Shown: piece by piece, positions 17,567 through 64,000 of the stretch
How positions within the stretch are numbered: position 1 is the first letter of the stretch
Layout of the letters: each line of letters starts with the position of its first letter
Program-made: the position numbers and the translations under genes
Notes under the pieces: model-generated
Database searches by the model: none
The model's input: only the letters and a program-made list of their open reading frames with translations
Told to the model about the DNA's origin: nothing
Source of the DNA: Arctopsyche grandis
Taxonomy: Eukaryota > Arthropoda > Insecta > Trichoptera > Hydropsychidae
Length of the DNA stretch: 64,000 nucleotides
NCBI RefSeq assembly: GCF_051622035.1
Contig: NC_135367.1
Span: forward strand, 29,404,001 to 29,468,000
Reading direction: 5' to 3'

Positions 17567-17575
17567 CATATAAAA

Positions 17576-22200: not shown

Positions 22201-22497
22201 CGAATTCTTTGATTTCGGTGATGGTTAGGTTAGGTTGGGTTAGTTTTGGTGAGGTAAGCGAGTTTTGTTTAAATTTAAAAATCTCGAATTCTTTAATTTC
22301 GGTGATGGTTAGGTTAGGTTAAGTTAGCTTTGGTGGGTTCGCGAATGTCGTGAAAATCTTAGAATCTCGAATTCTTTGATTTCGGTGTTAGATAGGTTAG
22401 GTTGGGTTAGGTATGGTGAGGTAAGCGAGTTTTGTGTATATTTTTGCATTGTCGATCTCTTTGATTTCGGTGATAGTTAGGCTAGGTTGGGTTAGGT

Positions 22498-35100: not shown

Positions 35101-38100
35101 TTGTCGATTTCTTTGATTTCGGTGATAGTTAGGCTAGGTTGGGTTAGGTTTGGTGAGGTTAACGAGTTTTGTGTACATCTTACAATCTCGAATTCTTTGA
35201 TTTCGGTGATGGTTAGGTTAGGTTGGATAAGGTTTGGTGAGGTTATCGAGTTTCGTGTATATTTTAAAATCTCGAATTCTTTGATTTCGGTGATGGTTAG
35301 GTTAGGTTGGGTTAATTTTGGTGAGGTAAGCGAGTTTTGTTTAAATTTATGAATCTCGAATTCTTTGATTTCGGTGATGGTTAGGTTAGGTTGGGTTAGC
35401 TTTGGTGGGTTAGCGAATGTCGTGAAAATCTTAGAATCTCGAATTCTTTGATTTTGGTGTTGGATAGGTTAGGTTGGGTTAGGTATGGTGAGGTAAGCGA
35501 GTTTTGTGTATATTTTTGCAATGTCGAATTCTTTGATTTCGGTGATGGTTAGGTAAGGTTGGGTTAGGTTTGGTGAGGTTAGCGAGATTTGTGAATATTT
35601 TTGCATTGTCGAATTCTTTGATTTCGGTGATAGTTAGGCTAGGTTGGGTTAGGTTTGGTGAGGTTAGCGAGTTTTGTGTATATTTTTGCATTGTCGATCT
35701 CTTTGATTTCGGTGATAGTTAGGCTAGGTTGGGTTAGGTTTGGTGAGGCTAACGAGTTTTGTGTATATTTTTGCATTGTCGATTTCTTTGATTTCGGTGA
35801 TAGTTAGGCTAGGTTGGGTTAGGTTTGGTGAGGTTAACGAGTTTTGTGTACATCTTACAATCTCGAATTCTTTGATTTCGGTGATGGTTAGGTTAGGTTG
35901 GATAAGGTTTGGTGAGGTAAGCGAGTTTCGTGTATATTTTAAAATCTCGAATTCTTTGATTTCGGTGATGGTTAGGTTAGGTTGGGTTAATTTTGGTGAG
36001 GTAAGTGAGTTTTGTTTAAATTTATAAATCTCGAATTCTTTGATTTCGGTGATGGTTAGGTTAGGTTGGGTTAATTTTGGTGAGGTAAGCGAGTTTTGTT
36101 TAAATTTATGAATCTCGAATTCTTTGATTTCGGTGATGGTTAGGTTAGGTTGGGTTAGCTTTGGTGGGTTAGCGAATGTCGTGAAAATCTTAGAATCTCG
36201 AATTCTTTGATTTTGGTGTTGGATAGGTTAGGTTGGGTTAGGTTTGGTGAGGTTAGCGAGATTTGTGAATATTTTTGCATTGTCGAATTCTTTGATTTCG
36301 GTGATAGTTAGGCTAGGTTGGGTTAGGTTTGGTGAGGTAAGCGAGTTTTGTGTATATTTTTGCATTGTCGAACTCTTTGATTTCGTTGATAGTTAGGCTA
36401 GGTTGGGTTAGGTTTGGTGAGGTTAGCGAGTTTTGTGTATATTTTTGCAATTTTGAATTCTTTGATTTCGGTGATGGTTAGGTTAGGTTGGGTTAGCTTT
36501 GGTGAGGTTAGCGAATTCCGTGGAAATCTTACAATCTCGAATTCTTTGATTTCGGTCTTGGATAGGTTAGGTTGGGTTAGGAATGGTGAGGTAAGCGAGT
36601 TTTGTGTATATTTTTGCATTGTCGAATTCTTTGATTTCGGTGATGGTTAGGTTAGGTTGGATAAGGTTTGGTGAGGTTAGCGAGTTTCGTTTATACTTTT
36701 GCAAAGTCGATTTCTTTGATTTCGGTAAAAGTTAGGCTAGGTTGGGTTAGGTTTGTTGAGGTTAACGAGTTTTGTGTACATCTGACAATCTCGAATTCTT
36801 TGATTTCGGTGATGGTGAGGTTTCGTTGGATAAGGTTTGGTGAGGTTAGCGAGTTTCGTGTATATTTTAAAATCTCGAATTCTTTGATTTCGGTGATGGT
36901 TAGGTTAGGTTGGGTTAATTTTGGTGAGGTAAGCGAGTTTTGTTTAAATTTATGAATCTCGAATTCTTTGATTTCGGTGATGGTTAGGTTAGGTTGGGTT
37001 AGCTTTGGTGGGTTAGCGAATGTCGTGAAAATCTTAGAATCTCGAATTCTTTGATTTTGGTGTTGGATAGGTTAGGTTGGGTTAGGTATGGTGAGGTAAG
37101 CGAGTTTTGTGTATATTTTTGCAATGTCGAATTCTTTGATTTCGGTGATGGTTAGGTAAGGTTGGGTTAGGTTTGGTGAGGTTAGCGAGTTTTGTGTATA
37201 TTTTTGCATTGTCGATTTCTTTGATTTCGGTAATAGTTAGGCTAGGTTGGGTTAGGTTTGGTGAGGTTAACGAGTTTTGCGTACATCTTACAATCTCGAA
37301 TTCTTTGATTTCGGTGATGGTTAGGTTAGGTTGGATAAGGTTTGGTGAGGTTATCGAGTTTCGTGTATATTTTAAAATCTCGAATTCTTTGATTTCGGTG
37401 ATGGTTAGGTTAGGTTGGGTTAATTTTGGTGAGGTAAGCGAGTTTTGTTTAAATTTATGAATCTCGAATTCTTTGATTTCGGTGATGGTTAGGTTAGGTT
37501 GGGTTAGCTTTGGTGGGTTAGCGAATGTCGTGAAACTCTTAGAATCTCGAATTCTTTGATTTCGGTGATGGTTAGGTAAGGTTGGGTTAGGTTTGGTGAG
37601 GTTAGCGAGATTTGTGAATATTTTTGCATTGTCGAATTCTTTGATTTCGGTGATAGTTAGGCTAGGTTGGGTTAGGTTTGGTGAGGTTAGCGAGTTTTGT
37701 GTATATTTTTGCATTGTCGATCTCTTTGATTTCGGTGATAGTTAGGCTAGGTTGGGTTAGGTTTGGTGAGGTTAACGAGTTTTGTGTATATTTTTGCATT
37801 GTCGATTTCTTTGATTTCGGTGATAGTTAGGCTAGGTTGGGTTAGGTTTGGTGAGGTTAACGAGTTTTGTGTACATCTTACAATCTCGAATTTTTTGATT
37901 TCGGTGATGGTTAGGTTAGGTTGGATAAGGTTTGGTGAGGTAAGCGAGTTTCGTGTATATTTTAAAATCTCGAATTCTTTGATTTCGGTGATGGTTAGGT
38001 TAGGTTGGGTTAATTTTGGTGAGGTAAGTGAGTTTTGTTTAAATTTATAAATCTCGAATTCTTTGATTTCGGTGATGGTTAGGTTAGGTTGGGTTAATTT

Positions 38101-39027
38101 TGGTGAGGTAAGCGAGTTTTGTTTAAATTTATGAATCTCGAATTCTTTGATTTCGGTGATGGTTAGGTTAGGTTGGGTTAGCTTTGGTGGGTTAGCGAAT
38201 GTCGTGAAAATCTTAGAATCTCGAATTCTTTGATTTTGGTGTTGGATAGGTTAGGTTGGGTTAGGTATGGTGAGGTAAGCGAGTTTTGTGTATATTTTTG
38301 CAATGTCGAATTCTTTGATTTCGGTGATGGTTAGGTAAGGTTGGGTTAGGTTTGGTGAGGTTAGCGAGATTTGTGAATATTTTTGCATTGTCGAATTCTT
38401 TGATTTCGGTGATAGTTAGGCTAGGTTGGGTTAGGTTTGGTGAGGTTAGCGAGTTTTGTGTATATTTTTGCATTGTCGATCTCTTTGATTTCGGTGATAG
38501 TTAGGCTAGGTTGGGTTAGGTTTGGTGAGGTTAACGAGTTTTGTGTATATTTTTGCATTGTCGATTTCTTTGATTTCGGTGATAGTTAGGCTAGGTTGGG
38601 TTAGTTTTGGTGAGGTTAACGAGTTTTGTGTACATCTTACAATCTCGAATTCTTTGATTTCGGTGATGGTTAGGTTAGGTTGGATAAGGTTTGGTGAGGT
38701 AAGCGAGTTTCGTGTATATTTTAAAATCTCGAATTCTTTGATTTCGGTGATGGTTAGGTTAGGTTGGGTTAGCTTTGGTGGGTTAGCGAATGTCGTGAAA
38801 ATCTTAGAATCTCGAATTCTTTGATTTTGGTGTTGGATAGGTTAGGTTGGGTTAGGTATGGTGAGGTAAGCGAGTTTTGTGTATATTTTTGCAATGTCGA
38901 ATTCTTTGATTTCGGTGATGGTTAGGTAAGGTTGGGTTAGGTTTGGTGAGGTTAGCGAGATTTGTGAATATTTTTGCATTGTCGAATTCTTTGATTTCGG
39001 TGATAGTTAGGCTAGGTTGGGTTAGGT

Positions 39028-40620
39028 TTGGTGAGGTTAGCGAGTTTTGTGTATGTTTTTGCATTGTCGATCTCTTTGATTTCGGTGATAGTTAGGCTAA
39101 GTTGGGTTAGGTTTGGTGAGGTTAACGAGTTTTGTGTACATCTTACAATCTCGAATTCGTTGATTTCGATAATGGTTAGGTTAGGTTGGATAAGGTTTGG
39201 TGAGGTTAGCGAGTTTCGTGTATATTTTAAAATCTCGAATTCTTTGATTTCGGTGATGGTTAGGTTAGGTTGGGTTAGTTTTGGTGAGGTAAGCGAGTTT
39301 TGTTTAAATTTAAAAATCTCGAATTCTTTAATTTCGGTGATGGTTAGGTTAGGTTAAGTTAGCTTTGGTGGGTTCGCGAATGTCGTGAAAATCTTAGAAT
39401 CTCGAATTCTTTGATTTCGGTGTCTGATAGGTTAGGTTGGGTTAGGTATGGTGAGGTAAGCGAGTTTTGTGTATATTTTTGCATTGTCGATCTCTTTGAT
39501 TTCGGTGATAGTTAGGCTAGGTTGGGTTAGGTTTGGTGAGGTTAGCGAGTTTTGTGTATATTTTTGCATTGTCGATTTCTTTGATTTCGGTGATGGTTAG
39601 GTTAGGTTGGATAAGGTTTGGTGAGGTTATCGAGTTTCGTGTATATTTTAAAATCTCGAATTCTTTGATTTCGGTGATGGTTAGGTTAGGTTGGGTTAAT
39701 TTTGGTGAGGTAAGCGAGTTTTGTTTAAATTTATGAATCTCGAATTCTTTGATTTCGGTGATGGTTAGGTTAGGTTGGGTTAGCTTTGGTGGGTTAGCGA
39801 ATGTCGTGAAAATCTTAGAATCTCGAATTCTTTGATTTTGGTGTTGGATAGGTTAGGTTGGGTTAGGTTTGGTGAGGTAAGCGAGTTTTGTGTATATTTT
39901 TGCAATGTCGAATTCTTTGATTTCGGTGATGGTTAGGTAAGGTTGGGTTAGGTTTGGTGAGGTTTGCGAGATTTGTGAATATTTTTGCATTGTCGAATTT
40001 TTTGATTTCGGTGATAGTTAGGCTTGGTTGGGTTAGGTTTGGTGAGGTAAGCGAGTTTTGTGTATATTTTTGCATTGTCGATCTCTTTGATTTCGGTGAT
40101 AGTTAGGCTAGGTTGGGTAAGGTTTGGTGAGGTAACCGAGTTTTGTGAATATTTTTGCAATGTCGATTTCTTTGATTTCGGTGATGGTAAGGTTAGGTTA
40201 GGTAAGGTTTGTTGAGGTTAGCGAGTTTTTTGTATATTTTTGCATTGTCGAATTCTTTGATTTCGGTGATAGTTAGGCTAGGTTGGGTTAGGTTTGGTGA
40301 GGTAAGCGAGATTTGTGTATATTTTTGCATTGTCGAATTCTTTGATTTCGGTGATAGTTAGGCTATGTTGGGTTAGGTTTGGTGAGGTTAACGAGTTTTG
40401 TGTACATCTTACATACTCGAATTCGTTGATTTCGATAATGGTTAGGTTAGGTTGGATAAGGTTTGGTGAGGTTAGCGAGTTTCGTGTATATTTTAAAATC
40501 TCGAATTCTTTGATTTCGGTGATGGTTAGGTTAGGTTGGGTTAATTTTGGTAAGGTAAGCGAGATTTGTTTAAATTTATAAATCTCGAATTCTTTGATTT
40601 CGGTGATGGTTAGGTTAGGT
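39028..40620 (+). repeat. Long duplicated satellite block, copy 1
   Basis: This block and 53566-55158 carry the same ordered monomer variants at a constant offset of 14,538, including rare variants such as GATTTCGATAATGG and CTATGTTGGG. Within it the two copies differ by reciprocal single-monomer losses near 39600 and 54300. Confidence 0.75.
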
Positions 40621-41226
40621 TGGGTTACCTTTGGTGGGTTAGCGAATGTCGTGAAAATCTTAGAATCTCGAATTCTTTGATTTCGGTGTTGGATAGGTTA
40701 GCTTGGGTTAGGTATGGTGAGGTAAGCGAGTTTTGTGTATATTTTTGCAATGTTGAATCTTTTGACATCGGTGACGGTTAGGTTGGGTTGGGTTAGGTTT
40801 GGTGAGGTTAGCGAGATTTGTGTAAATCTTTAAAACTCGAGTTCTTTGATTTCGGTGATGGTTAGGTTAGGTTGGGTTAGGTTTGGTGAGTTTGAGTAGC
40901 GCGCGGACAGTGGGAGCGAGTGGACGTGTCTGTGCGCGCTCTCTCGGCCGAGCACCGACGCCGGCTGTCTACACAGTCCAGAACCGCTACCGCTACTAGA
41001 AGCCAGGAGTCGCAACTAGGAGTCAGGAGGGGCCATTGGCACTTCACTGCGTCTGTGCCAGTAGTATCAGACGTATCTGAAGGAGGTAGGAGAGGCTGTG
41101 TGTTTGCATGTAAAAAAAAAAAAAAAAAAACCAGGCCGCCACGTTGTTATAACTACCACACAACCCATAACACACCGACAGTTGTCGAAACACCACGCAC
41201 ATAGCGATAATAATAATTGACACTTT

Positions 41227-41800
41227 GCAAATTGTCGTTATATCGCGTGTAACACAACATCGCTAATCATCTGACCACGCACGCCGGTTCCGATCGCTAT
41301 ACGAATACGACCAGCTGACTATCTGTCAAATCGCGCGACAACCATTGACATTTCTCGGGGGCGCGGGGAGCTGCCAGTCACTGTCAAAGGTGGCTACACT
41401 GTGAAAAAAGCCAGTGAAACGCCCGCAAATCGTCGTTATATCACGTGTAATACAATACAATACATCGCTTGAACAGCTGTACCACACCACGCCGGTTCCG
41501 ATCGTGACACGAATACGATCAGCTGACTAGCTGTCAAATAGCGTGACAGCCAATTATATTTCACGCCTGCCTCAGGCAAAGGTGGCTACACTGTGAATAA
41601 AGCCAGTGAAACATCCGCAAATTGTTGTAATATTACGTGTAATACAATACAATACAATACATTCCTAGACCATCTGACTACACCACGCCGGTTTCGATCG
41701 CGACACGAACACGATCAGCTGACTAGCTGTCAAATCGTGGGGGCGCCGGCGAGCCGCTTGCCACAGACGATCGTTGCAAAGCACCCACTGTACAACACGG
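41227..41800 (+). repeat. Tandem repeat of about 195 bp in the LINE 5' UTR (three copies)
   Basis: Copies start at about 41227, 41424 and 41617. Each begins GCAAATTGTCGTTATAT or a close variant, continues with CACGCCGGTTCCGATCG, GATCAGCTGACTAGCTGTCA, and (copies 1 and 2) GGTGGCTACACTGTGAA. The third copy is shortened. Tandem 5' UTR repeats are common in LINEs and may be promoter units. Confidence 0.75.
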
Positions 41801-41847
41801 CATTCATACAAATAAATAAACAAATATAAATAATTATCTGCAAAACC

Positions 41848-42064
41848 AATTAAGATTAAAACTCTAATTAAATTATTTATTCACTAGCGACACCTATGGT
41901 CAATTTAGATTAAAACCGTAATTAAATTATTTACTCACTAGCGACACCTATGGTCAATTTAGATTAAAACCTTAATTAAATTATTTATACACTAGCGACA
42001 TCTATGGTCAATTAAGATCAAAACCTTAAATTAAATTATTTATTCACTAGCGACATCTATGGTC
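41848..42064 (+). repeat. 54-bp tandem repeat in the LINE 5' UTR (four copies)
   Basis: Four copies of about 54 bp, each with AATTTAGATTAAAACC, TAATTAAATTATTTA and CACTAGCGACACCTATGGTC, differing by a few substitutions. Confidence 0.85.
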
Positions 42065-42497
42065 ACAATTAAAAATCTTTACCGCAAAAAATCGTAAGAA
42101 GTAAACGTCACCGGGAACGAACCGCCGACATACATAGTTCGCACTATGAACAGCTGACATACATGCGCGTGACTACCTGCCCCCATACGCGAGAGACGTA
42201 ACATCATTACATGCACAGCTGATTCTTAGACCAGCTGACCACAACAAACGACACATCGTGGATTATCTGCTGATATGAATGTCCATTTACTTTATCTGTC
42301 ATTATAAATGCTATTCTTCATGTTTATGTATGAATGTATTTATGTTTATGTTTAATTGGTATTTTGTTTTTTTCTTTTTTGTTTTTTTCTTTTTTGTGTT
42401 ATATTTTTTTGACTAGTGTGGCACTTTAGGCTTTAGCGCTACAGGAAATCCTGTTAAGCCACAATGGTCTGTTAAAAATAAATAAATAAATAAATGA

Positions 42498-43712
42498 ATG
42501 ACAATGAGCAACGAAAAGCCACAGCAACAAATTATGGATCCAATAAACAGAATAAAAGTGGAAATGGACATGCTCGTGGAGTTTGTGTCAAACGTCAAAA
42601 ACACGAAGGAAAACATTAAAACCCAAATTAGCCTAGTACGCAGATTAGTGACAAGCCTAGCCGAGGAAGAGCAGAAAAAGAATAAAATCAACAAAACTGC
42701 ATCTAAAGCTTCCGACGCGAGCACGGCGACAGAGACGACAGAGAAAAACACTCAGACCGAGACCGAAGAGTGGAAGACCCAACGGAAACAGCAGCGGAAG
42801 CAAAAGTGGAAGCCCCAGAAGCCGCTACAGAAGCAACAGGAACAGGAGCAAGCGCAACAGGAAGAAAAACAGCAGCAGCGCCCACAGCCGTATCCATATC
42901 CACAGCCGCAGACGCAGCAGCAACGACAACAACAAAACAAGGTCCAGCAGAAAAAACCCAAACTGACTATACCGCGCCCAAAAACCGAAGCGATAACACT
43001 GAAGCGAAGCGAAAGTAATAACAACACGTACGCGGATATTCTCAAAAAAATAAGAACCACCGTAGACATCGCTGCAACTGGATGCCAGGTGGACCGCATC
43101 AGAAAAACCCGGAACGGTATGATCCTAATGGAACTGGAAAGGAACGGCGGCAACCCCACAACGCTAGCAGACGCCATTAAAACAGCACTAGGTGACGACA
43201 CAACGGTCAGGAGATTAACGACGATGGTGAAGATAGAGGTGCGGGACCTGGATGAAGGAGAAGAGCGCCAAGATGTGATGGACGCCCTCAAACCAGTACT
43301 GGGAACGCTTACAGTCGAGGAGGCTGAAGTGGTCAGCCTATTCAACACTTACAACGGAACAAGAGTCGCAGTTGTAAAGATGGCAAGCGACAAAGCACGT
43401 ACAATCCTAAAAAAAGGTAAGCTTCGCGTAGGATGGGTAAACTGCCGCGTACGACAGCACATAGAAGCGGTCCGCTGTTACAAGTGCCAGGAGTACGGAC
43501 ACTTGGCAGCCACCTGCAGCGGAAGTGACAGGTCCCAACTGTGTCGCCGATGTGGTAAAGGAGGCCACATAGCGGCCAAATGCGAGAACAGTCTGTGCTG
43601 CATTGTCTGCAAAGACCGCGGCACGGACACACAGCACATGGCAGGGACACCCAAGTGTCCTGCATACAAAACCGAACTGGAGAGACAGAGGAAGGGGAAG
43701 ACACAAACATAA
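42498..43712 (+). CDS. LINE ORF1 protein, gag-like with three zinc knuckles (404 aa)
   Basis: This nucleic-acid-binding protein of an R1-clade LINE packages the RNA and, in TRAS/SART relatives, directs the particle to its chromosomal target. The N-terminal 130 residues are charged and then Gln/Pro-rich (low complexity). A central basic segment leads to an RRM-like or coiled region around residues 170-310. Three Cys/His knuckles close the protein: CYKCQEYGHLAATC from residue 327, LCRRCGKGGHIAAKC, and a third of CxxC...H...C form ending GTPKC. The start is ATG 42498 (MTMSNEK); a second in-frame ATG lies two codons later. The TAA stop at 43710-43712 overlaps the ORF2 ATG. Confidence 0.9.
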   Translation: MTMSNEKPQQQIMDPINRIKVEMDMLVEFVSNVKNTKENIKTQISLVRRLVTSLAEEEQKKNKINKTASKASDASTATETTEKNTQTETEEWKTQRKQQRKQKWKPQKPLQKQQEQEQAQQEEKQQQRPQPYPYPQPQTQQQRQQQNKVQQKKPKLTIPRPKTEAITLKRSESNNNTYADILKKIRTTVDIAATGCQVDRIRKTRNGMILMELERNGGNPTTLADAIKTALGDDTTVRRLTTMVKIEVRDLDEGEERQDVMDALKPVLGTLTVEEAEVVSLFNTYNGTRVAVVKMASDKARTILKKGKLRVGWVNCRVRQHIEAVRCYKCQEYGHLAATCSGSDRSQLCRRCGKGGHIAAKCENSLCCIVCKDRGTDTQHMAGTPKCPAYKTELERQRKGKTQT

Positions 43713-46700
43713 TGGCTGCAAATGGAAAAATAAGAGTCCTCCAGGTAAACCTTAACCATTGCAGGGCTGCGCAGGACCTCCTCCTGCAGACCATCTATGA
43801 GAAAAAAATTGACATCACAATAATAAGCGAACAACATCGCCCATTAAATGGAGATTGGTTCGCCGACACAACCCAGCGCTCGGCGATCTACATCTCACGC
43901 GGAAGCGGGATAATCACAGAGGCAGGAACACCACAGGTAGGTGCAGTCTGGGTTCGGGTGCGGGGCGTGCGGTTCTACAGCTGTTACTGTTCGCCGAACG
44001 CCTCGGTCTCGGACTTCGTACTGTTTCTGCACGAATTGGAGGCGAGCGTCAGCAGGAGCACAGGACGAGTGGTCGTTGCCGGAGACTTCAATGCAAAGTC
44101 TACAGAGTGGGAATCACCTATCACCGATGAGCGCGGTCGCCTACTAGCTGACACAATGGCCAGACTAAACCTGCATGTCCTGAACACCGGAAGTGCAAAT
44201 ACCTTTGTCAGAGGAAGCACTGGCTCCATAGTCGACGTCGCTTTCGCGGACGAGGACACCATTGGCCGCATTACCAACTGGGAGGTGCTCAGCGACACAA
44301 CACTAAGCGACCACCAATACATCTCATACGAGCTAAGAGACACAAGAACGACCGATTCGACCCCGCATAAGACCGAGCCGACAAGGTGGGCCGTCGGCAA
44401 GCTAGACACTAAAACGTGCGAAGAGACGCTCAAGTTCGAGTGTGGCCGTATTCAAGATACCACAACTGGAACAGAACTTTGCAAAGAGACAACGGCAGCG
44501 ATCGCTCGGGCTTGCGAGGCCTCGATGCCGAAGAAGGGTGGAGTGGGACGGAAACCACAATATTGGTGGAACGACGAAATTGCAGAGCTGCGAAGAACCT
44601 GCACAAGAAAACGAAGAGAGCACTGTCGGACTGAACGAAGACACAGATCAGGCCACGAAGACGACCAAACGGCCATCGAAACCGCAAGCGAAGCCCACAA
44701 AGAAGCAAGAAGAGCAGTCACCTACGCAATCAGGAGGAGTAAAAAGTTGATGTGGGAACAACTCATAGCGACGGTGGACCTGGACCCATGGGGCCAAGCG
44801 TATCGTATGGTCCGTGGTAAGCTGTCCGGCCACCGCCAAATTCCCTTCTTAAACAGAGATGGAAATCTGGAAACGATAGTTTCACACCTTTTCCCTACAC
44901 ACAAAGAGACGACACCACAAGCGTGGATCATAGAGCCCGAAGACATCCCAGAGTTTACACTGGGTGAACTATACTCGGCAACAAAACGGCTGTCCACTGA
45001 CAAATCACCTGGACCTGACGGAATACCGAATGAAATTCTCCGCATATCGGCTAAAGTCTGCCCGAAAACATTGCTGCGGACATTCAACAGCTGCCTCAAG
45101 AGCGGAGAATTCCCAAAAATATGGAAAAGGCAGAAACTCGTGCTCATACCCAAGGGCAACAAACCACCGGAGGAGCCGTCGTCATACCGGCCACTGTGCA
45201 TGTTGGACGGATTGGGCAAACTCCTCGAGCGCCTCATATTACAGAGAGTAGCGAAGACGACGGAGACGGAAGGCGGGTTATGTTCGCAGCAATACGGGTT
45301 CAGACCCGGTCGGTCCACGGTAGACGCAATAGCCGAGGTCATAAAGACAATAAAAGACGCTCATAGTGGAACATTAAAAACGAGCAGTCACTGCATAATG
45401 GTGACACTGGACGTTAAAAATGCTTTTAATTCTGCCAGATGGGATAAAATAATGTCGGCTCTATCGGAGCTCGGTGGAATACCAGACTACCTTGTAAGAA
45501 TAATAGGAAGTTACCTGTCGGAGAGGGTTCTGATCACAAGACTGGCAGAACGCAAGATCTCCTCTGGTGTTCCACAGGGCTCTGTCATGGGACCAACATT
45601 ATGGAACATAATGTACGACTCACTTCTTAAATTAAGACTTCCAGGAGGAGCGAAGCTGGTGGGTTTTGCAGACGACGTAGCTATCATTGTTGTGGCTAGG
45701 AAAATAACGGACCTCGAGACCGCCACAAACGACACTCTCGACCTGGTGAACGACTGGATGACGGAAGCCGGACTACAGCTTGCACCACAAAAAACCGAGG
45801 CGGTTTTGTTCACCAGAAAAAGGAAAATCGAACCCCCGAAAATCACCATTTCGGGATACGACGTGAGACTAAAAAGGTATTTGACTTATCTTGGAATAAT
45901 TCTAGATGACAAATTAACCTTTAAGAAACAAGCTGAGCATGCCGCGGAGAAAGCGGCAAGAGCTGTCAACAACATCGGACGACTAATGCCCAACATCGGA
46001 GGGCCCAAACCATGCCGAAGAAAACTACTCAACAGCGTAGTGCACTCGGTGATCCTATACGGTGCACCAATATGGGCGCCCAGCATGGCAGTGGAGAGAA
46101 CCAGGAAATACCTCGCAAGAGTACAACGCAGGGGCGTACTGAGAATCGTATCGGCATATACAACAGTATCCGAGTGCGCAGTACTGGTTATTGCTGGAGT
46201 ACCACCCATCGACCTACTGGCACATGAAAGAAAGAAGGTATACGAGGGAAGAAAGGAGGGAACGAAAAAAGTAAGAGCGACGGCACGGGCGGAGCTCATG
46301 ACGGAATGGCAGGTCCGCTGGGACGGCGCAGACAAAGGTAGATGGACACATCGACTGATCCCATCAATCGCAGCCTGGACAAGGAGGAAAAGCGCAAAAC
46401 CGGACTACCACACAACCCAGCTACTAACCAGCCATGGGTGTTTCGGAGCATTCCTCAACCGCATCGGAAAGGAAACGACAGCAGGATGTCACCACTGTGC
46501 ATCAATCAGAGATGACGCAGAACATACACTCCTCGTATGCCCTGCATGGGAATCTGAAAGAGCGACACTCGAAGAAAGCACCCCGGTCAACACTGAAGAC
46601 ATAGCACAGAACATCACTAAAGACGTAGCCTCTTGGGAAGCATTCGCAGAGTTCGCAAGGAGCGTCATGAAGCAGAAGGAGGAGGCCGAACGGCTAAGGA

Positions 46701-46732
46701 AAGCGGAAAGACTTATAGAAGGAAATGAATAG
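43712..46732 (+). CDS. LINE ORF2: APE endonuclease and reverse transcriptase (1006 aa)
   Basis: The enzyme nicks the target and copies its RNA from the nick (target-primed reverse transcription). The ATG at 43712 overlaps the ORF1 stop as TAATG; the frame is open further upstream, but this start fits the family. Endonuclease: VNLNHCRAAQDLL near residue 12, ISEQHR with the catalytic Glu near 40, VVVAGDFNAKSTEW, and catalytic SDH at residues 199-201. Reverse transcriptase: SPGPDGIPNEIL, YRPLCMLDGLGKLLE, QYGFRPGRSTVDAI, VTLDVKNAFNSARW, GVPQGSVMGPTLWN, and the catalytic FADD at 652-655. A CxxC...H...C zinc motif (CHHCASIRDDAEHTLLVC) lies near residue 925. No RNase H domain is seen, as usual for R1. 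There are no internal stops. Encoding its own endonuclease fits a site-specific element. Confidence 0.95.
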   Translation: MAANGKIRVLQVNLNHCRAAQDLLLQTIYEKKIDITIISEQHRPLNGDWFADTTQRSAIYISRGSGIITEAGTPQVGAVWVRVRGVRFYSCYCSPNASVSDFVLFLHELEASVSRSTGRVVVAGDFNAKSTEWESPITDERGRLLADTMARLNLHVLNTGSANTFVRGSTGSIVDVAFADEDTIGRITNWEVLSDTTLSDHQYISYELRDTRTTDSTPHKTEPTRWAVGKLDTKTCEETLKFECGRIQDTTTGTELCKETTAAIARACEASMPKKGGVGRKPQYWWNDEIAELRRTCTRKRREHCRTERRHRSGHEDDQTAIETASEAHKEARRAVTYAIRRSKKLMWEQLIATVDLDPWGQAYRMVRGKLSGHRQIPFLNRDGNLETIVSHLFPTHKETTPQAWIIEPEDIPEFTLGELYSATKRLSTDKSPGPDGIPNEILRISAKVCPKTLLRTFNSCLKSGEFPKIWKRQKLVLIPKGNKPPEEPSSYRPLCMLDGLGKLLERLILQRVAKTTETEGGLCSQQYGFRPGRSTVDAIAEVIKTIKDAHSGTLKTSSHCIMVTLDVKNAFNSARWDKIMSALSELGGIPDYLVRIIGSYLSERVLITRLAERKISSGVPQGSVMGPTLWNIMYDSLLKLRLPGGAKLVGFADDVAIIVVARKITDLETATNDTLDLVNDWMTEAGLQLAPQKTEAVLFTRKRKIEPPKITISGYDVRLKRYLTYLGIILDDKLTFKKQAEHAAEKAARAVNNIGRLMPNIGGPKPCRRKLLNSVVHSVILYGAPIWAPSMAVERTRKYLARVQRRGVLRIVSAYTTVSECAVLVIAGVPPIDLLAHERKKVYEGRKEGTKKVRATARAELMTEWQVRWDGADKGRWTHRLIPSIAAWTRRKSAKPDYHTTQLLTSHGCFGAFLNRIGKETTAGCHHCASIRDDAEHTLLVCPAWESERATLEESTPVNTEDIAQNITKDVASWEAFAEFARSVMKQKEEAERLRKAERLIEGNE

Positions 46733-47050
46733 ATGTCAACCCATAGATATAGATATACTATTACCAGCCTATGATTAATACTGCAAATGAATGTTTTTCA
46801 GGAAACAGAAACCAAGCGGGTCAACTAGATGAACTGGAAAGGAGGGATCCGCACAAAAAGGAGAAGCCAACAAGGACGAAATCAGCCCCTGCGGAAGCAA
46901 TCCACCAACGAGTGGGGTCCCCAAAGGGGTGAGGTGAGTCGGGGGAGTTTTTTAGTCAGTAAAAATCTGACACTTCCCTCTAGTGCGGACTAGAGGGAGT
47001 CTTATTGAAGATTTTCTCCTCCCACGCATAGGAAAAAAAAAAAAAAAAAA
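46733..47050 (+). other. LINE 3' UTR and poly(A) tail
   Basis: About 300 bases follow the ORF2 stop. A stem is possible around 46976-47000, where CCCTCTAGTGCGGACTAGAGGG is self-complementary (CCCTCTAGT with ACTAGAGGG). This may be the hairpin recognised by the reverse transcriptase. The region is followed by 18 A. The same sequence precedes 27 A in the truncated copy. Confidence 0.6.
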
Positions 47051-50000
47051 GGTTTGGTGAGTTTAGCGAGTTTCGGGTATATTGTTGCAATGTCGAATTC
47101 TTTGATTTCGGTGACGGTTAGGTTGGGTTGGGTTAGGTTTGGTGAGGTAAGCGAGTTTTGTGTAAATCTTACAATCTCGAATTCTTTGATTTTGGTGATG
47201 GTTAGGTTAGGTCGGATTAGGTTTGGTGAGGTTAGCGAGTTTCGTGTATACTTTTGCAAGGTCGATTTCTTTGATTTCGGTGATGGTTAGGTTAGGTTGG
47301 GTTAGGTTTGGTGAGGTTAGCGAGTTTTGTGTATAATTTTGCATTGTCGAATTCTTTGATTTCGGTGAAAGTTAAGCTAGGTTGGGTCAGGTTTGGTGAG
47401 GTTAGCGAGTTTTGTGTATATTTTTGCATTGTCGATTTCTTTGATTTCGGTGATAGTTAGGCTAGGTTGGGTTAGGTTTGGTGAGGTAAGCGAGTTTTGT
47501 GTATATTTTTGCATTGTCGAATTCTTTGATTTCGGTGAAAGTTAAGCTAGGTTGGGTCAGGTTTGGTGAGGTAAACGAGTTTTGTGTATATTTTTGCATT
47601 GTCGATTTCTTTGATTTCGGTGATAGTTAGGCTAGGTTGGGTTAGGTTTGGTGAGGTTAACGAGTTTTGTGTACATCTTACAATCTCGAATTCTTTGATT
47701 TCGGTGATGGTTAGGTTAGGTTGGATAAGGTTTGGTGAGGTTAGCGAGTTTCGTTTATACTTTTGCAAAGTCGATTTCTTTGATTTCGGTGATAGTTAGG
47801 CTAGGTTGGGTTAGGTTTGGTGAGGTAACCGAGTTTTGTGTATATTTTTGCAATGTCGAATTCTTTGACTTCGGTGACGGTTAGGTTGGGTTGGGTTAGG
47901 TTTGGTGAAGTTAGCGAGATTTGTGTAAATCTTACAATCTCGAATTTTTTTGATTTCGGTGATGGTAAGGTTAGGTTGGATTAGGTTTGGTGAGGTTAGC
48001 GAGTTTCGTGTATATTTTTGCAATGTCGAATTCTTTGATTTCGGTGAAAGTTAAGCTAGGTTGGGTCAGGTTTGGTGAGGTAAGCGAGTTTTGTGTATAT
48101 TTTTGCATTGTCGATTTCTTTGATTTCGGTGATAGTTAGGCTAGGTTGGGTTAGGTTTGGTGAGGTTACCGAGTTTTGTGTATATTTTTGCATTGTCGAT
48201 TTCTTTGATTTCCGTGATAGTTAGGCTAGGTTAGGTTAGGTTTGGTGAGGTTAACGAGTTTTGTGTACATCTTACAATCTCGAATTCTTTAATTTCGGTG
48301 ATGGTTAGGTTAGGTTGGATAAGGTTTGGTGAGGTTATCGAGTTTCGTGTATATTTTAAAATCTCGAATTCTTTGATTTCGGTGATGGTTAGGTTAGGTT
48401 GGGTTAATTTTGGTGAGGTAAGCGAGTTTTGTTTAAATTTATGAATCTCGAATTCTTTGATTTCGTTGATGGTTAGGTTAGGTTGGGTTAGCTTTGGTGG
48501 GTTAGCGAATGTCGTGAAAATCTTAGAATCTCGAATTCTTTGATTTTGGTGTTGGATAGGTTAGGTTGGGTTAGGTTTGGTGAGGTTAGCGAGATTTGTG
48601 AATATTTTTGCATTGTCGAATTCTTTGATTTCGGTGATAGTTAGGCTAGGTTGGGTTAGGTTTGGTGAGGTTAGCGAGTTTTGTGTATATTTTTGCATTG
48701 TCGAACTCTTTGATTTCGTTGATAGTTAGGCTAGGTTGGGTTAGGTTTGGTGAGGTTAGCGAGTTTTGTGTATATTTTTGCAATTTTGAATTCTTTGATT
48801 TCGGTGATGGTTAGGTTAGGTTGGGTTAGCTTTGGTGAGGTTAGCGAATTCCGTGGAAATCTTACAATCTCGAATTCTTTGATTTCGGTCTTGGATAGGT
48901 TAGGTTGGGTTAGGAATGGTGAGGTAAGCGAGTTTTGTGTATATTTTTGCATTGTCGAATTCTTTGATTTCGGTGATGGTTAGGTTAGGTTGGATAAGGT
49001 TTGGTGAGGTTAGCGAGTTTCGTTTATACTTTTGCAAAGTCGATTTCTTTGATTTCGGTAAAAGTAAGGCTAGGTTGGGTTAGGTTTGTTGAGGTTAACG
49101 AGTTTTGTGTACATCTGACAATCTCGAATTCTTTGATTTCGGTGATGGTGAGGTTTCGTTGGATAAGGTTTGGTGAGGTTAGCGAGTTTCGTGTATATTT
49201 TAAAATCTCGAATTCTTTGATTTCGGTGATGGTTAGGTTAGGTTGGGTTAGTTTTGGTGAGGTAAGCGAGTTTTGTTTAAATTTAAAAATCTCGAATTCT
49301 TTAATTTCGGTGATGGTTAGGTTAGGTTAAGTTAGCTTTGGTGGGTTCGCGAATGTCGTGAAAATCTTAGAATCTCGAATTCTTTGATTTCGGTGTTGGA
49401 TAGGTTAGGTTGGGTTAGGTATGGTGAGGTAAGCGAGTTTTGTGTATATTTTTGCATTGTCGATCTCTTTGATTTCGGTGATAGTTAGGCTAGGTTGGGT
49501 TAGGTTTGGTGAGGTTAGCGAGTTTTGTGTATATTTTTGCATTGTCGATTTCTTTGATTTCGGTGATAGTTAGGCTAGGTTGGGTTAGGTTTGGTGAGGT
49601 TAACGAGTTTTGTGTACATCTTACAATCTCGAATTCTTTGATTTCGGTGATGGTTAGGTTAGGTTGGATAAGGTTTGGTGAGGTTATCAAGTTTCGTGTA
49701 TATTTTAAAATCTCGAATTCTTTGATTTCGGTGATGGTTAGGTTAGGTTGGGTTAATTTTGGTGAGGTAAGCGAGTTTTGTTTAAATTTATGAATCTCGA
49801 ATTCTTTGATTTCGGTGATGGTTAGGTTAGGTTGGGTTAGCTTTGGTGGGTTAGCGAATGTCGTGAAAATCTTAGAATCTCGAATTCTTTGATTTTGGTG
49901 TTGGATAGGTTAGGTTGGGTTAGGTATGGTGAGGTAAGCGAGTTTTGTGTATATTTTTGCAATGTCGAATTCTTTGATTTCGGTGATGGTTAGGTAAGGT

Positions 50001-50611
50001 TGGGTTAGGTTTGGTGAGGTTAGCGAGATTTGTGAATATTTTTGCATTGTCGAATTCTTTGATTTCGGTGATAGTTAGGCTAGGTTGGGTAAGGTTTGGT
50101 GAGGTTAGCGAGTTTTGTGTATATTTTTGCATTGTCGATCTCTTTGATTTCGGTGATAGTTAGGCTAGGTTGGGTTAGGTTTGGTGAGGTTAACGAGTTT
50201 TGTGTATATTTTTGCATTGTCGATTTCTTTGATTTCGGTGATAGTTAGGCTAGGTTGGGTTAGGTTTGGCGAGGTTAACGAGTTTTGTGTACATCTTACA
50301 ATCTCGAATTCTTTGATTTCGGTGATGGTTAGGTTAGGTTGGATAAGGTTTGGTGAGGTAAGCGAGTTTCGTGTATATTTTAAAATCTCGAATTCTTTGA
50401 TTTCGGTGATGGTTAGGTTAGGTTGGGTTAATTTTGGTGAGGTAAGTGAGTTTTGTTTAAATTTATAAATCTCGAATTCTTTGATTTCGGTGATGGTTAG
50501 GTTAGGTTGGGTTAATTTTGGTGAGGTAAGCGAGTTTTGTTTAAATTTATGAATCTCGAATTCTTTGATTTCGGTGATGGTTAGGTTAGGTTGGGTTAGC
50601 TTTGGTGGGTT
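47051..50611 (+). repeat. Satellite array B, second segment
   Basis: The array continues in the same orientation and register after the LINE. The first monomer starts with the target duplication and completes the monomer interrupted at 40893. It includes an eight-monomer higher-order unit from 49506. Confidence 0.98.
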
Positions 50612-51369
50612 CGGAATGGCAGGTCCGCTGGGACGGCGCAGACAAAGGTAGATGGACACATCGACTGATCCCATCAATCGCAGCCTGGACAAGGAGGAAA
50701 AGCGCAAAACCGGACTACCACACAACCCAGCTACTAACCAGCCATGGGTGTTTCGGAGCATTCCTCAACCGCATCGGAAAGGAAACGACAGCAGGATGTC
50801 ACCACTGTGCATCAATCAGAGATGACGCAGAACATACACTCCTCGTATGCCCTGCATGGGAATCTGAAAGAGCGACACTCGAAGAAAGCACCCCGGTCAA
50901 CACTGAAGACATAGCACAGAACATCACTAAAGACGTAGCCTCTTGGGAAGCATTCGCAGAGTTCGCAAGGAGCGTCATGAAGCAGAAGGAGGAGGCCGAA
51001 CGGCTAAGGAAAGCGGAAAGACTTATAGAAGGAAATGAATAGATGTCAACCCATAGATATAGATATACTATTACCAGCCTATGATTAATACTGCAAATGA
51101 ATGTTTTTCAGGAAACAGAAACCAAGCGGGTCAACTAGATGAACTGGAAAGGAGGGATCCGCACAAAAAGGAGAAGCCAACAAGGACGAAATCAGCCCCT
51201 GCGGAAGCAATCCACCAACGAGTGGGGTCCCCAAAGGGGTGAGGTGAGTCGGGGGAGTTTTTTAGTCAGTAAAAATCTGACACTTCCCTCTAGTGCGGAC
51301 TAGAGGGAGTCTTATTGAAGATTTTCTCCTCCCACGCATAGGAAAAAAAAAAAAAAAAAAAAAAAAAAA
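50612..51369 (+). mobile_element. 5'-truncated copy of the R1-clade LINE
   Basis: A 758-bp copy begins at the position matching 46302 of the full element (offset 4310) and runs to the 3' end with a 27-A tail (51343-51369). It has its own 13-bp duplication GCTTTGGTGGGTT (50599-50611 and 51370-51382). By eye it is identical to the full copy over its length. It carries only the last 143 or so codons of ORF2 (to the stop at 51042) plus the 3' UTR, so it is inert. Different flanks and tail length show an independent insertion, not a duplication of the first copy. Confidence 0.93.
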
Positions 51370-51540
51370 GCTTTGGTGGGTTAGCGAATGTCGTGAAAAT
51401 CTTAGAATCTCGAATTCTTTGATTTTGGTGTTGGATAGGTTAGGTTGGGTTAGGTATGGTGAGGTAAGCGAGTTTTGTGTATATTTTTGCAATGTCGAAT
51501 TCTTTGATTTCGGTGATGGTTAGGTAAGGTTGGGTTAGGT

Positions 51541-53565
51541 TTGGTGAGGTTAGCGAGTTTTGTGTATATTTTTGCATTGTCGATTTCTTTGATTTCGGTG
51601 ATAGTTAGGCTAGGTTGGGTTAGGTTTGGTGAGGTTAACGAGTTTTGTGTACATCTTACAATCTCGAATTCTTTGATTTCGGTGATGGTTAGGTTAGGTT
51701 GGATAAGGTTTGGTGAGGTTATCGAGTTTCGTGTATATTTTAAAATCTCGAATTCTTTGATTTCGGTGATGGTTAGGTTAGGTTGGGTTAATTTTGGTGA
51801 GGTAAGCGAGTTTTGTTTAAATTTATGAATCTCGAATTCTTTGATTTCGGTGATGGTTAGGTTAGGTTGGGTTAGCTTTGGTGGGTTAGCGAATGTCGTG
51901 AAAATCTTAGAATCTCGAATTCTTTGATTTTGGTGTTGGATAGGTTAGGTTGGGTTAGGTATGGTGAGGTAAGCGAGTTTTGTGTATATTTTTGCAATGT
52001 CGAATTCTTTGATTTCGGTGATGGTTAGGTAAGGTTGGGTTAGGTTTGGTGAGGTTAGCGAGATTTGTGAATATTTTTGCATTGTCGAATTCTTTGATTT
52101 CGGTGATAGTTAGGCTAGGTTGGGTTAGGTTTGGTGAGGTTAGCGAGTTTTGTGTATATTTTTGCATTGTCGATCTCTTTGATTTCGGTGATAGTTAGGC
52201 TAGGTTGGGTTAGGTTTGGTGAGGTTAGCGAGTTTTGTGTATATTTTTGCATTGTCGATTTCTTTGATTTCGGTGATAGTTAGGCTAGGTTGGGTTAGGT
52301 TTGGTGAGGTTAACGAGTTTTGTGTACATCTTACAATCTCGAATTCTTTGATTTCGGTGATGGTTAGGTTAGGTTGGATAAGGTTTGGTGAGGTTATCGA
52401 GTTTCGTGTATATTTTAAAATCTCGAATTCTTTGATTTCGGTGATGGTTAGGTTAGGTTGGGTTAATTTTGGTGAGGTAAGCGAGTTTTGTTTAAATTTA
52501 TGAATCTCGAATTCTTTGATTTCGGTGATGGTTAGGTTAGGTTGGGTTAGCTTTGGTGGGTTAGCGAATGTCGTGAAAATCTTAGAATCTCGAATTCTTT
52601 GATTTTGGTGTTGGATAGGTTAGGTTGGGTTAGGTATGTTGAGGTAAGCGAGTTTTGTGTATATTTTTGCAATGTCGAATTCTTTGATTTCGGTGATGGT
52701 TAGGTAAGGTTGGGTTAGGTTTGGTGAGGTTAGCGAGATTTGTGAATATTTTTGCATTGTCGAATTCTTTGATTTCGGTGATAGTTAGGCTAGGTTGGGT
52801 TAGGTTTGGTGAGGTTAGCGAGTTTTGTGTATATTTTTGCATTGTCGATCTCTTTGATTTCGGTGATGGTTAGGCTAGGTTGGGTTAGGTTTGGTGAGGT
52901 TAACGAGTTTTGTGTATATTTTTGCATTGTCGATTTCTTTGATTTCGGTGATAGTTAGGCTAGGTTGGGTTAGGTTTGGTGAGGTTAACGAGTTTTGTGT
53001 ACATCTTACAATCTCGAATTCTTTGATTTCGGTGATGGTTAGGTTAGGTTGGATAAGGTTTGGTGAGGTTATCGAGTTTCGTGTATATTTTAAAATCTCG
53101 AATTCTTTGATTTCGGTGATGGTTAGGTTAGGTTGGGTTAATTTTGGTGAGGTAAGCGAGTTTTGTTTAAATTTATGAATCTCGAATTCTTTGATTTCGG
53201 TGATGGTTAGGTTAGGTTGGGTTAGCTTTGGTGGGTTAGCGAATGTCGTGAAAATCTTAGAATCTCGAATTCTTTGATTTTGGTGTTGGATAGGTTAGGT
53301 TGGGTTAGGTATGGTGAGGTAAGCGAGTTTTGTGTATATTTTTGCAATGTCGAATTCTTTGATTTCGGTGATGGTTAGGTAAGGTTGGGTTAGGTTTGGT
53401 GAGGTTAGCGAGATTTGTGAATATTTTTGCATTGTCGAATTCTTTGATTTCGGTGATAGTTAGGCTAGGTTGGGTTAGGTTTGGTGAGGTTAGCGAGTTT
53501 TGTGTATATTTTTGCATTGTCGATCTCTTTGATTTCGGTGATAGTTAGGCTAGGTTGGGTTAGGT
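51541..53565 (+). repeat. Three tandem copies of the 675-bp higher-order repeat
   Basis: Units begin at 51541, 52216 and 52891, exactly 675 bases apart, with the next related block at 53566. Monomer types follow the same order in each, and only rare single-base differences are visible (for example GTATGTTGAGG at 52634). Such identity between units with clearly different monomers inside each unit is the signature of higher-order repeat amplification. Confidence 0.85.
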
Positions 53566-55158
53566 TTGGTGAGGTTAGCGAGTTTTGTGTATGTTTTTGC
53601 ATTGTCGATCTCTTTGATTTCGGTGATAGTTAGGCTAAGTTGGGTTAGGTTTGGTGAGGTTAACGAGTTTTGTGTACATCTTACAATCTCGAATTCGTTG
53701 ATTTCGATAATGGTTAGGTTAGGTTGGATAAGGTTTGGTGAGGTTAGCGAGTTTCGTGTATATTTTAAAATCTCGAATTCTTTGATTTCGGTGATGGTTA
53801 GGTTAGGTTGGGTTAGTTTTGGTGAGGTAAGCGAGTTTTGTTTAAATTTAAAAATCTCGAATTCTTTAATTTCGGTGATGGTTAGGTTAGGTTAAGTTAG
53901 CTTTGGTGGGTTCGCGAATGTCGTGAAAATCTTAGAATCTCGAATTCTTTGATTTCGGTGTTGGATAGGTTAGGTTGGGTTAGGTATGGTGAGGTAAGCG
54001 AGTTTTGTGTATATTTTTGCATTGTCGATCTCTTTGATTTCGGTGATAGTTAGGCTAGGTTGGGTTAGGTTTGGTGAGGTTAGCGAGTTTTGTGTATATT
54101 TTTGCATTGTCGATTTCTTTGATTTCGGTGTTAGTTAGGCTAGGTTGGGTTAGGTTTGGTGAGGTTAACGAGTTTTGTGTACATCTTACAATCTCGAATT
54201 CTTTGATTTCGGTGATGGTTAGGTTAGGTTGGATAAGGTTTGGTGAGGTTATCGAGTTTCGTGTATATTTTAAAATCTCGAATTCTTTGATTTCGGTGAT
54301 GGTTAGGTTAGGTTGGGTTAGCTTTGGTGGGTTAGCGAATGTCGTGAAAATCTTTGAATCTCGAATTCTTTGATTTTGGTGTTGGATAGGTTAGGTTGGG
54401 TTAGGTTTGGTGAGGTAAGCGAGTTTTGTGTATATTTTTGCAATGTCGAATTCTTTGATTTCGGTGATGGTTAGGTAAGGTTGGGTTAGGTTTGGTGAGG
54501 TTTGCGAGATTTGTGAATATTTTTGCATTGTCGAATTTTTTGATTTCGGTGATAGTTAGGCTTGGTTGGGTTAGGTTTGGTGAGGTAAGCGAGTTTTGTG
54601 TATATTTTTGCATTGTCGATCTCTTTGATTTCGGTGATAGTTAGGCTAGGTTGGGTAAGGTTTGGTGAGGTAACCGAGTTTTGTGAATATTTTTGCAATG
54701 TCGATTTCTTTGATTTCGGTGATGGTAAGGTTAGGTTAGGTAAGGTTTGTTGAGGTTAGCGAGTTTTTTGTATATTTTTGCATTGTCGAATTCTTTGATT
54801 TCGGTGATAGTTAGGCTAGGTTGGGTTAGGTTTGGTGAGGTAAGCGAGATTTGTGTATATTTTTGCATTGTCGAATTCTTTGATTTCGGTGATAGTTAGG
54901 CTATGTTGGGTTAGGTTTGGTGAGGTTAACGAGTTTTGTGTACATCTTACATACTCGAATTCGTTGATTTCGATAATGGTTAGGTTAGGTTGGATAAGGT
55001 TTGGTGAGGTTAGCGAGTTTCGTGTATATTTTAAAATCTCGAATTCTTTGATTTCGGTGATGGTTAGGTTAGGTTGGGTTAATTTTGGTAAGGTAAGCGA
55101 GATTTGTTTAAATTTATAAATCTCGAATTCTTTGATTTCGGTGATGGTTAGGTTAGGT
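53566..55158 (+). repeat. Long duplicated satellite block, copy 2
   Basis: Counterpart of 39028-40620. The LINE at 40894 lies just after copy 1. Copy 2 instead continues as ordinary array. Confidence 0.75.
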
Positions 55159-60132: not shown

Positions 60133-60172
60133 AAACCTAACCCAACCTAGTAGGCTAGGTTGGGTTAGGTTT
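60133..60172. repeat. Perfect 18-bp inverted repeat inside array B
   Basis: AAACCTAACCCAACCTAG (60133-60150), four-base spacer TAGG, then its exact complement at 60155-60172. It is the only place in array B where I saw the CCTAA orientation on the top strand. It looks like a small templated inversion of the normal TTAGG block. Confidence 0.85.
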
Positions 60173-63100: not shown

Positions 63101-64000
63101 AGGTTGGGTTAGGTTTGGTGAGGTTAGCGAGTTTTGTGTATATTTTTGCATTGTCGATTTCTTTGATTTCGGTGATAGTTAGGCTAGGTTGGGTTAGGTT
63201 TGGTGAGGTTTGCGAGTTTTGTGTATATTTTTGCATTACCGATCTCTTTGATTTCGGTGATAGTTAGGCTAGGTTGGGTTAGGTTTGGTGAGGTTAACGA
63301 GTTTTGTGTATATTTTTGCATTGTCGATTTCTTTGATTTCGGTGATAGTTAGGCTAGGTTGGGTTAGGTTTGGTGAGGTTAACGAGTTTTGTGTACATCT
63401 TACAATTTCGAATTCTTTGATTTCGGTGATGGTTAGGTTAGGTTGGGTTAGCTTTGGTGGGTTAGCGAATGTCGTGAAAATCTTAGAATCTCGAATTCTT
63501 TGATTTTGGTGTTGGATAGGTTAGGTTGGGTTAGGTTTGGTTAGGTAAGCGAGTTTTGTGTATATTTTTGCAATGTCGAATTCTTTGATTTCGGTGATGG
63601 TTAGGTAAGGTTGGGTTAGGTTAGGTTTGGTGAGGTTAGCGAGATTTGTGAATATTTTTGCATTGTCGAATTCTTTGATTTCGGTGATAGTTAGGCTAGG
63701 TTGCGTTAGGTTTGGTGAGGTTAGCGAGTTTTGTGTATATTTTTGCATTGTCGATCTCTTTGATTTCGGTGATAGTTAGGCTAGGTTGGGTTAGGTTTGG
63801 TGAGGTAAGCGAGTTTTGTGTATATTTTTGCATTGTCGATCTCTTTGATTTCGGTGATAGTTAGGCTAGGTTGGGTTAGGTTTGGTGAGGTTAACGAGTT
63901 TTGTGTACATCTTACAATCTCGAATTCGTTGATTTCGGTGATGGTTAGGTTAGGTTGGATAAGGTTTGGTAAGGTTAGCGAGTTTCGTGTATATTTTAAA

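Follow-up and report, generated by a model that had tools for sequence, protein, structure and literature searches.

R1 long interspersed nuclear elements (LINEs) insert into 28S ribosomal DNA (rDNA) and produce target site duplications (TSDs) of 14 bp. In this study, we analyzed a 64,000-bp stretch of the genome of the trichopteran Arctopsyche grandis, hereafter the window (C13:29404001-29468000 of the 475.7-Mb assembly), which carries two insertions of an R1-type LINE in a satellite with a telomere-like segment. Contig C13 is 29,525,130 bp long, and the window ends 57 kb from the contig end. The LINE is very probably a SART-like, TTAGG-reading element that has a telomere-mimicking satellite as its home, which would be a mechanism of known kind. 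In excerpts of the published reports, the telomere-specific LINE SART1 of Bombyx mori is described as lying in sense on the TTAGG strand with its poly(A) joined to AGG, and as requiring at least three TTAGG repeats, only the third of which is used in (TTAGG)3 (PMC7265360). The SART search template is given as AAAAAAAAAAGGTTAGGTTAGG, corresponding to poly(A)-GGTTAGGTTAGG (PMC12564400), and the title of Kojima 2005 on SART1 names the UAAUG junction of open reading frames 1 and 2 (ORF1 and ORF2). The TRAS1 endonuclease (EN) cuts T-A on the TTAGG-type strand and C-T on the CCTAA-type strand (PMC2868851), and TRAS1 inserts the opposite way round to SART1 (PMC7265360).

The known targets of site-specific LINEs, according to similar excerpts, comprise rRNA and tRNA genes, spliced-leader exons, transposons, microsatellites and telomere repeats (PMC4640811). 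Among the titles and abstract openings of the open-access literature, we found no TTAGG-reading LINE with a complex satellite as its main target. The nearest precedent found there is YURE, which occasionally lies in a U2-derived satellite of Ciona and is thus a LINE inside a satellite that arose from the sequence its relatives canonically target; it differs in being a relative of a restriction-like-endonuclease lineage, in inserting into the satellite only occasionally, and in that this satellite comes from U2 small nuclear RNA genes and not from telomeres (PMC4640811). Celine, a centromere LINE of poplar, is likewise concentrated in a repetitive chromosomal region but its site bias is described as no more than a short A-rich one, its TSD is unique to each copy, and it is not tied to a fixed repeat position (PMC11288735). 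Hebe, a subtelomeric rotifer LINE of the jockey clade, is presented as having no apparent target preference (PMC2861651).

The initial annotation had described two insertions of one LINE with TSDs, and we could locate the TSD on both sides of each copy. Both sites lie directly after TTGGGTTA and before AGCGA in one orientation, exactly as had been stated. To extend this comparison to the genome, a 401-bp ORF2 probe was run against the assembly, giving 118 candidates; the 40 that were scored all stood at 100%. An exact 21-mer from the 3' end of the LINE occurred 192 times in the assembly (reversed control, 0), and the first 100 of these places, in contig order up to C19, were listed. The resulting set of 101 junctions comprised the 40 scored probe matches, the second copy of the window and 60 of 61 further listed places (C4:150366 was omitted); 99 of them belong to the 100 listed among the 192 exact 3' ends, and the remaining two have variant ends. 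Each 3' flank was aligned to the satellite monomer, with phase 0 as the position given in the initial annotation. Flanks differing at no more than 2 of 45 bases were merged, which left 57 unique flanks, and a flank was called nonsatellite when its best score was at most 19, the maximum of 200 random 60-mers.

We observed 95 of the 101 poly(A) junctions in the satellite and 6 outside it (51 of the 57 unique flanks were within the satellite). Phase 0 accounted for 77 junctions and phase -15 for 12; 2 were at -5, and 1 each was at -10, -20, -1 and +31. For the unique flanks, the corresponding numbers were 43 at phase 0, 3 at -15 and 1 each at -5, -10, -20, -1 and +31, with the 6 nonsatellite flanks making up the rest. 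The dominant junction (phase 0) reads ...GGTTA/GG, where the slash marks the junction, and the orientation was one and the same in 95/95 satellite junctions. The strong sequence specificity proposed from two sites therefore holds in the genome-wide tabulation, in which 77 junctions share the predicted position over many independent insertions. A chance agreement of the two window sites was rejected, given the phase shared by 77/101 junctions and the orientation shared by all 95 satellite junctions. Off-phase satellite junctions lay 5, 10, 15 or 20 bp upstream in 16 of 18 cases (6 of 8 unique). Since such shifts are in the TTAGG register, the LINE is sequence specific and reads the telomere-like segment; the multiples of 5 bp bear out the proposed reading of this segment, and the EN alone would cause the site preference. 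The target specificity is strong but not absolute, since 6 of the 101 copies are nonsatellite. None of these six flanks matched the satellite above the random maximum on either strand; L150, with a score of 15 against the threshold of 19, belongs to this class despite its satellite-like first 14 bases.

Both junctions were read in 26 rows: two come from the window, 19 are among the 20 fetched copies, and 5 were assembled from several pieces. They correspond to 21 unique sites; one row, C7:2.079 Mb, is ambiguous, its target being a run of TTAGG. L053 to L055, whose flanks show no matching TSD where both were read, stand outside the 21 sites, and their 3' junctions are within the 101. The TSD measured 13 bp at 11 unique sites, 14 bp at 8, 12 bp at 1 and 9 bp at 1, this last one probably shortened, as the element alignment runs into the TSD. 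A one-base deletion in the monomer, to which the 13-bp TSD of the window had been ascribed, thus does not stand as the sole cause of the difference from 14 bp. In the 19 unique satellite sites, the TSD was preceded by A in 19/19 and began with G in 19/19, TTA stood before the junction in 17/19, and the second cut fell at a T/A step in 14/19.

The same LINE was observed outside this satellite. We searched the assembly for poly(A)10 with four GGTTAGG-type units after it, a pattern blind to other junction types in TTAGG tracts, and obtained 41 exact matches (control, 0), 28 of them on contig C41. Twenty of the 41, chosen by hand, were fetched and, having been selected by pattern, were kept apart from the 101 junctions. 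Thirteen of them are copies of this LINE, lying in perfect TTAGG tracts (on C41, C161 and C163) or in an apparent second TTAGG-bearing satellite: on C41 (2.93 Mb), the tracts are followed by GTACGTATG units, apparently a different satellite, in which (TTAGG)n is combined with GTACGTATGTATG units. The other seven belong to two families, B (L177, L179, L180 and L184; 49 exact 3' ends genome-wide) and C (L178, L188 and L196), whose 3' ends differ from that of the main LINE and which share its orientation and the poly(A)/GGTTAGG junction by which they were picked. Thus, the insertion rule is TTA/GG within a TTAGG-like tract; the satellite is where most tracts of this type are located, and the tract itself is what the LINE reads. 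The new satellite-targeting lineage of the initial annotation holds as far as strong specificity goes, but not for the satellite as such, since the family also enters TTAGG tracts and the apparent second satellite. The sequence specificity is not new either, the same orientation and junction having been published for SART1; the niche is the new part.

Likeness to SART1 extends over several features: sense orientation on the TTAGG strand, the junction of poly(A) to (A)GGTTAGG (seen in the satellite's variant of the motif; the TTAGG tracts were picked by this junction), TTAGG-like units upstream, and the UAAUG junction between ORF1 and ORF2, which both the window copy and 18 of the 20 copies fetched contain. 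The favored site is the last TTA/GG step of the monomer (GGTTAGGTTAGGTTGGGTTA/GG), and the TTAGGTTGGGTT upstream of it matches 11 of the 12 upstream bases of SART1. The difference lies in location, as this LINE is found mostly in the satellite and in interstitial TTAGG tracts, and none of its listed copies on C1 to C13 is in a terminal telomere array. The element is therefore SART-like by behavior, not by telomere-end location.

An ORF2 protein search gave 800 matches; among the 120 listed, the first eight are 45 to 48% identical, the named ones belong to Trichogramma, a wasp, and Molorchus, a beetle, and no sequence is identified as SART. When 49 ORF2 proteins were placed in a quick tree (30 from this lineage, 7 from TRAS and 12 from R1), three separate groups were obtained, with SH-aLRT values of 100, 100 and 99. 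An AlphaFold model of the EN (pLDDT, 90.1) was compared with solved structures using Foldseek: ranks 1 to 6 were TRAS1 and R1 EN, before L1 EN, with TRAS1 EN as the best match (E, 8.9e-18; 28 to 29% identity), compared to R1Bm EN (1.5e-15; 23%) and L1 EN (1.5e-13; 15%). Membership of the R1 clade is thus suggested mainly by the predicted EN structure. The R1-clade assignment of the initial annotation accordingly holds for the type of EN, while the phylogeny, in which the query lineage forms a group of its own (SH-aLRT, 100), compared it with TRAS and R1 only.

With TRAS1 (P0121), also from B. mori, the LINE shares an apurinic/apyrimidinic (AP)-type EN, the closest solved fold being 1wdu. It differs in its opposite insertion orientation, with 95/95 satellite junctions reversed relative to sense on the CCTAA strand, and in an ORF2 that is 29% identical and falls in a separate group of the tree (SH-aLRT, 100). 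The 28S rDNA LINE R1Bm (P0153) is similar in its R1-type EN and its 14-bp TSD, and differs in its 28S rDNA target, in an ORF2 that is 26% identical and in its separate tree group; no insertion of the present LINE into 28S rDNA was found, 95 of the 101 junctions being in the satellite and the other 6 not having been compared with rDNA. No relatives with flanks in viral contigs were confirmed in two scans, and a bacterial scan returned only L001 and L002, neither of them useful. The record end of L001 (CP043985.1, a Stammera capleta metagenome-assembled genome) encodes a piece of R1-like LINE EN with 34% identity, perhaps host DNA.

SART-like reading of TTAGG tracts is, from the analysis of these junctions, the most likely mechanism. 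An element of the R1/TRAS type would integrate by target-primed reverse transcription at TTAGG-like tracts. The ORF2 EN would nick the CCTAA-like strand at CC^TAA or CCT^AA, the bond being ambiguous by one A, preferably where about 12 bp of TTAGG-like sequence, TTAGGTTGGGTT in the satellite, lie upstream. The poly(A) RNA would be reverse transcribed from this first nick, and the second strand would be cut 13 to 14 bp away, usually at a T/A step, to yield the TSD. The CCT^AA form would correspond to the published SART1 geometry; the priming nick may equally be at TT/AGG, since the junction A is indistinguishable from poly(A).

The supply of such sites is large. The 15-mer TTAGGTTGGGTTAGG occurred 116,931 times in the assembly (reversed control, 1), and from the window density (75 per 37,815 bp) the satellite would amount to some 59 Mb, or about 12% of the assembly, assuming that the window array is typical. 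Being the main supply of TTAGG-like tracts, this large 85-bp satellite would be the niche of the LINE. Inspection of 17 ends of C1 to C12 gave 9 with plain TTAGG, 5 that were satellite-like and 3 consisting of N; on the small contig C19, one end carries TTAGG. Of the nine TTAGG-bearing ends, all showed TTAGG at 2 kb and five still did so at 6 kb, where the other four were satellite-like. Moreover, 49 of the 94 listed copies on C1 to C13 were within 1 Mb of a contig end, a zone that makes up 5.8% of that sequence. Together with the satellite at 6 kb in 4/9 TTAGG ends, this indicates that the satellite borders telomeres: it adjoins them where the transition was crossed, and interstitial blocks exist too. 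A host telomere motif TTAGGTTGGG, an idea derived from the monomer, was rejected, as the 9 of 17 ends of C1 to C12 that reach the telomere are plain TTAGG.

Several observations weigh against a SART-like, TTAGG-reading LINE. Six of 101 junctions are nonsatellite, and L060, L128 and L152 are unlike the target; L149 (phase +31) and L146 (-1) are off the 5-bp register; and in the copies at C7:0.32 and 0.36 Mb, the 5' and 3' flanks form no matching TSD. The junction form in the 20 pattern-found places was the search criterion and so is no independent evidence for the register. The best local alignments of ORF2 show identities of only 29% with TRAS1 and 26% with R1Bm. Copies in chromosome-end telomeric repeats, as expected of SART, were not found among the 94 listed on C1 to C13: none is within 37 kb of a contig end, despite TTAGG at 2 kb in 9/9 sampled ends. 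Similarly, none of the 41 poly(A)/GGTTAGG matches is in the terminal 10 kb of C1 to C13. The sampled terminal arrays sum to at least about 38 kb, if continuous between the sampled points, or about 7,600 units, compared to 116,931 exact satellite sites. Were both kinds of site hit at the same rate, telomeres should carry about 3.5 of the 57 insertions, and the chance of none is about 0.03, on rough counts; including near-exact satellite sites lowers the expectation. Since terminal telomeres hold a small share of the sites, the lack of the LINE there is weak evidence for avoidance.

This absence is nevertheless one of two points in favor of an EN adapted to the satellite, which would prefer the TTAGGTTGGGTT context to perfect telomere repeats and use perfect TTAGG tracts only secondarily. 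No terminal telomere insertion was seen among the listed copies or in the pattern search on C1 to C13, and among unique flanks the last TTA/GG step was used 43 times, versus 6 at the upstream steps. However, the LINE also enters TTAGG tracts on C41, C161 and C163, a preference for two upstream units is already expected from the available account of SART1 (PMC7265360), and the small share of sites in terminal telomeres makes absence there a weak argument. We consider such an adaptation rather unlikely. A broader version, equally tentative, holds that at least three LINE families with a common junction rule moved from the telomere to the mimicking satellite, with the EN of the main family tuned to TTAGGTTGGGTTAGG and the satellite as a sink sparing the telomeres. 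The few copies in nonsatellite DNA (L060, L066, L128, L132 and L152) could instead mean that insertion is broader than it looks and that copies outside the satellite were removed by selection; this is very improbable, since selection cannot yield one phase (77/95) and one orientation (95/95) inside the satellite, and the examined copies are very young. That the uniform sites stem from few insertions multiplied with the array, as the flank-sharing sets L101 to L108, L113 to L118 and L024 to L027 might suggest, is the least credible explanation, given that 57 unique flanks remain after merging, that 5' truncation points, TSDs and monomer subtypes differ between copies, and that the 94 listed places on C1 to C13 form 47 clusters on 12 of 13 contigs. 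A SART-like LINE reading TTAGG-like tracts, mostly in the satellite, remains the preferred reading.

Of the 20 fetched copies, 18 include the start of ORF2, and in every one of these ORF2 is intact at 1006 aa. The 20-mer around TAATG was exact in 18 of the 20, the other two being 5' truncated past it. In the 18 copies, ORF1 has 402 aa in 11, is shortened to 170 aa in L016, and has a start that was not found in 6. Divergence over ORF2 and the 3' untranslated region (UTR), in these 18 and the window copy, averaged 0.11% with a maximum of 0.39%, in a sample skewed to young copies by a probe that ranks near-identical ones first. The LINE is young and autonomous, with two ORFs, and its target preference is very recent. 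The copies in each of the sets L101 to L108, L113 to L118 and L024 to L027 have near-identical flanks and lie a few to tens of kb apart, seemingly single insertions multiplied with the array. Satellite amplification seems to carry the LINE, besides retrotransposition.

The features of the window are collected in Table 1. Over the 749 nucleotides shared, the truncated copy is identical to the full-length copy (749/749), and no further copies of the LINE were found in the window by blastn. The left edge of each insertion is ambiguous by one A, the target A being indistinguishable from poly(A). Once the two insertions are closed up, the array measures 37,815 bp and contains 26 occurrences of the target motif TTGGGTTAGCTTTGGTGGGTTAGCGA and 6 of TTGGGTTAGGTTTGGTGAGTTTAGCGAG, each count including the closed-up site. 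The tandem repeats of the 5' UTR are perhaps promoter repeats. In the minimum-energy fold of the 3' UTR of the window copy, the pairing differs from the stem-loop arms matched by eye. The main LINE (family A; window 46951 to 47033) and families B (L179 and L180) and C (L178) seemingly have a common 3' stem-loop architecture, in which the arms differ yet are self-complementary; the GTCTT..GAAGAT hairpin, identified by eye alongside folds of single sequences, is apparently common to all three. A separate satellite of about 150 bp, also CCTAACCCAA-rich and in the opposite orientation, occupies window positions 17568 to 19228 and adjoins the 85-bp array at about 19.24 kb. Two ORFs on the minus strand (6572 to 7240 and 16246 to 16854) look by eye like reverse transcriptase fragments of other LINEs, with no Pfam match.

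Table 1. Satellite arrays, LINE copies and their parts in the window (slashes separate paired or adjoining segments)
Feature	Position in window	Strand	Details
Satellite array, left part	19244..40893	+	85/169-bp; monomer segment GGTTAGGTTAGGTTGGGTTA/GGTTTGGTGAGGTTAGCGA
Satellite segment			GGTTAGGTTAGGTTGGGTTAGGTTTGGTGAGGTTAGCGA
Left TSD, full-length copy	40880..40893	+	GGTTTGGTGAGTTT
Full-length LINE	40894..47050	+	Including poly(A)
5' UTR tandem repeats	41385..42065	+	192-bp unit x1.8; 54-bp unit x4
ORF1	42498..43712	+	404 aa; CCHC zinc knuckles
Overlap of ORF1 stop with ORF2 start	43710..43714	+	TAATG
ORF2	43712..46732	+	1006 aa; AP-type EN, reverse transcriptase, C-terminal C926-C929-H938-C943 motif
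3' UTR stem-loops before poly(A)	46970..47032	+	Arms CCCTCTAGT/ACTAGAGGG and GTCTT/GAAGAT, paired by eye
Right TSD, full-length copy	47051..47064	+	GGTTTGGTGAGTTT
Satellite array separating the two LINE copies	47065..50611	+	
Left TSD, 5'-truncated copy	50599..50611	+	GCTTTGGTGGGTT
5'-truncated LINE copy	50612..51369	+	With poly(A)
Right TSD, 5'-truncated copy	51370..51382	+	GCTTTGGTGGGTT
Satellite array, right part	51383..64000	+	

If the main home of a TTAGG-reading LINE is a complex satellite, this would point to a natural route by which specificity may move: once the target has been copied to a different repeat, the element goes after it. The LINE thereby suggests how a parasite built for telomeres could live in a telomere look-alike. 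One genome here supplies over 100,000 candidate sites together with 57 distinct 3' flanks, so that the sequence rules of an AP-type LINE EN would become measurable, and the system lends itself to testing whether chromosome ends are shielded by telomere-like satellites from elements that seek telomeres.

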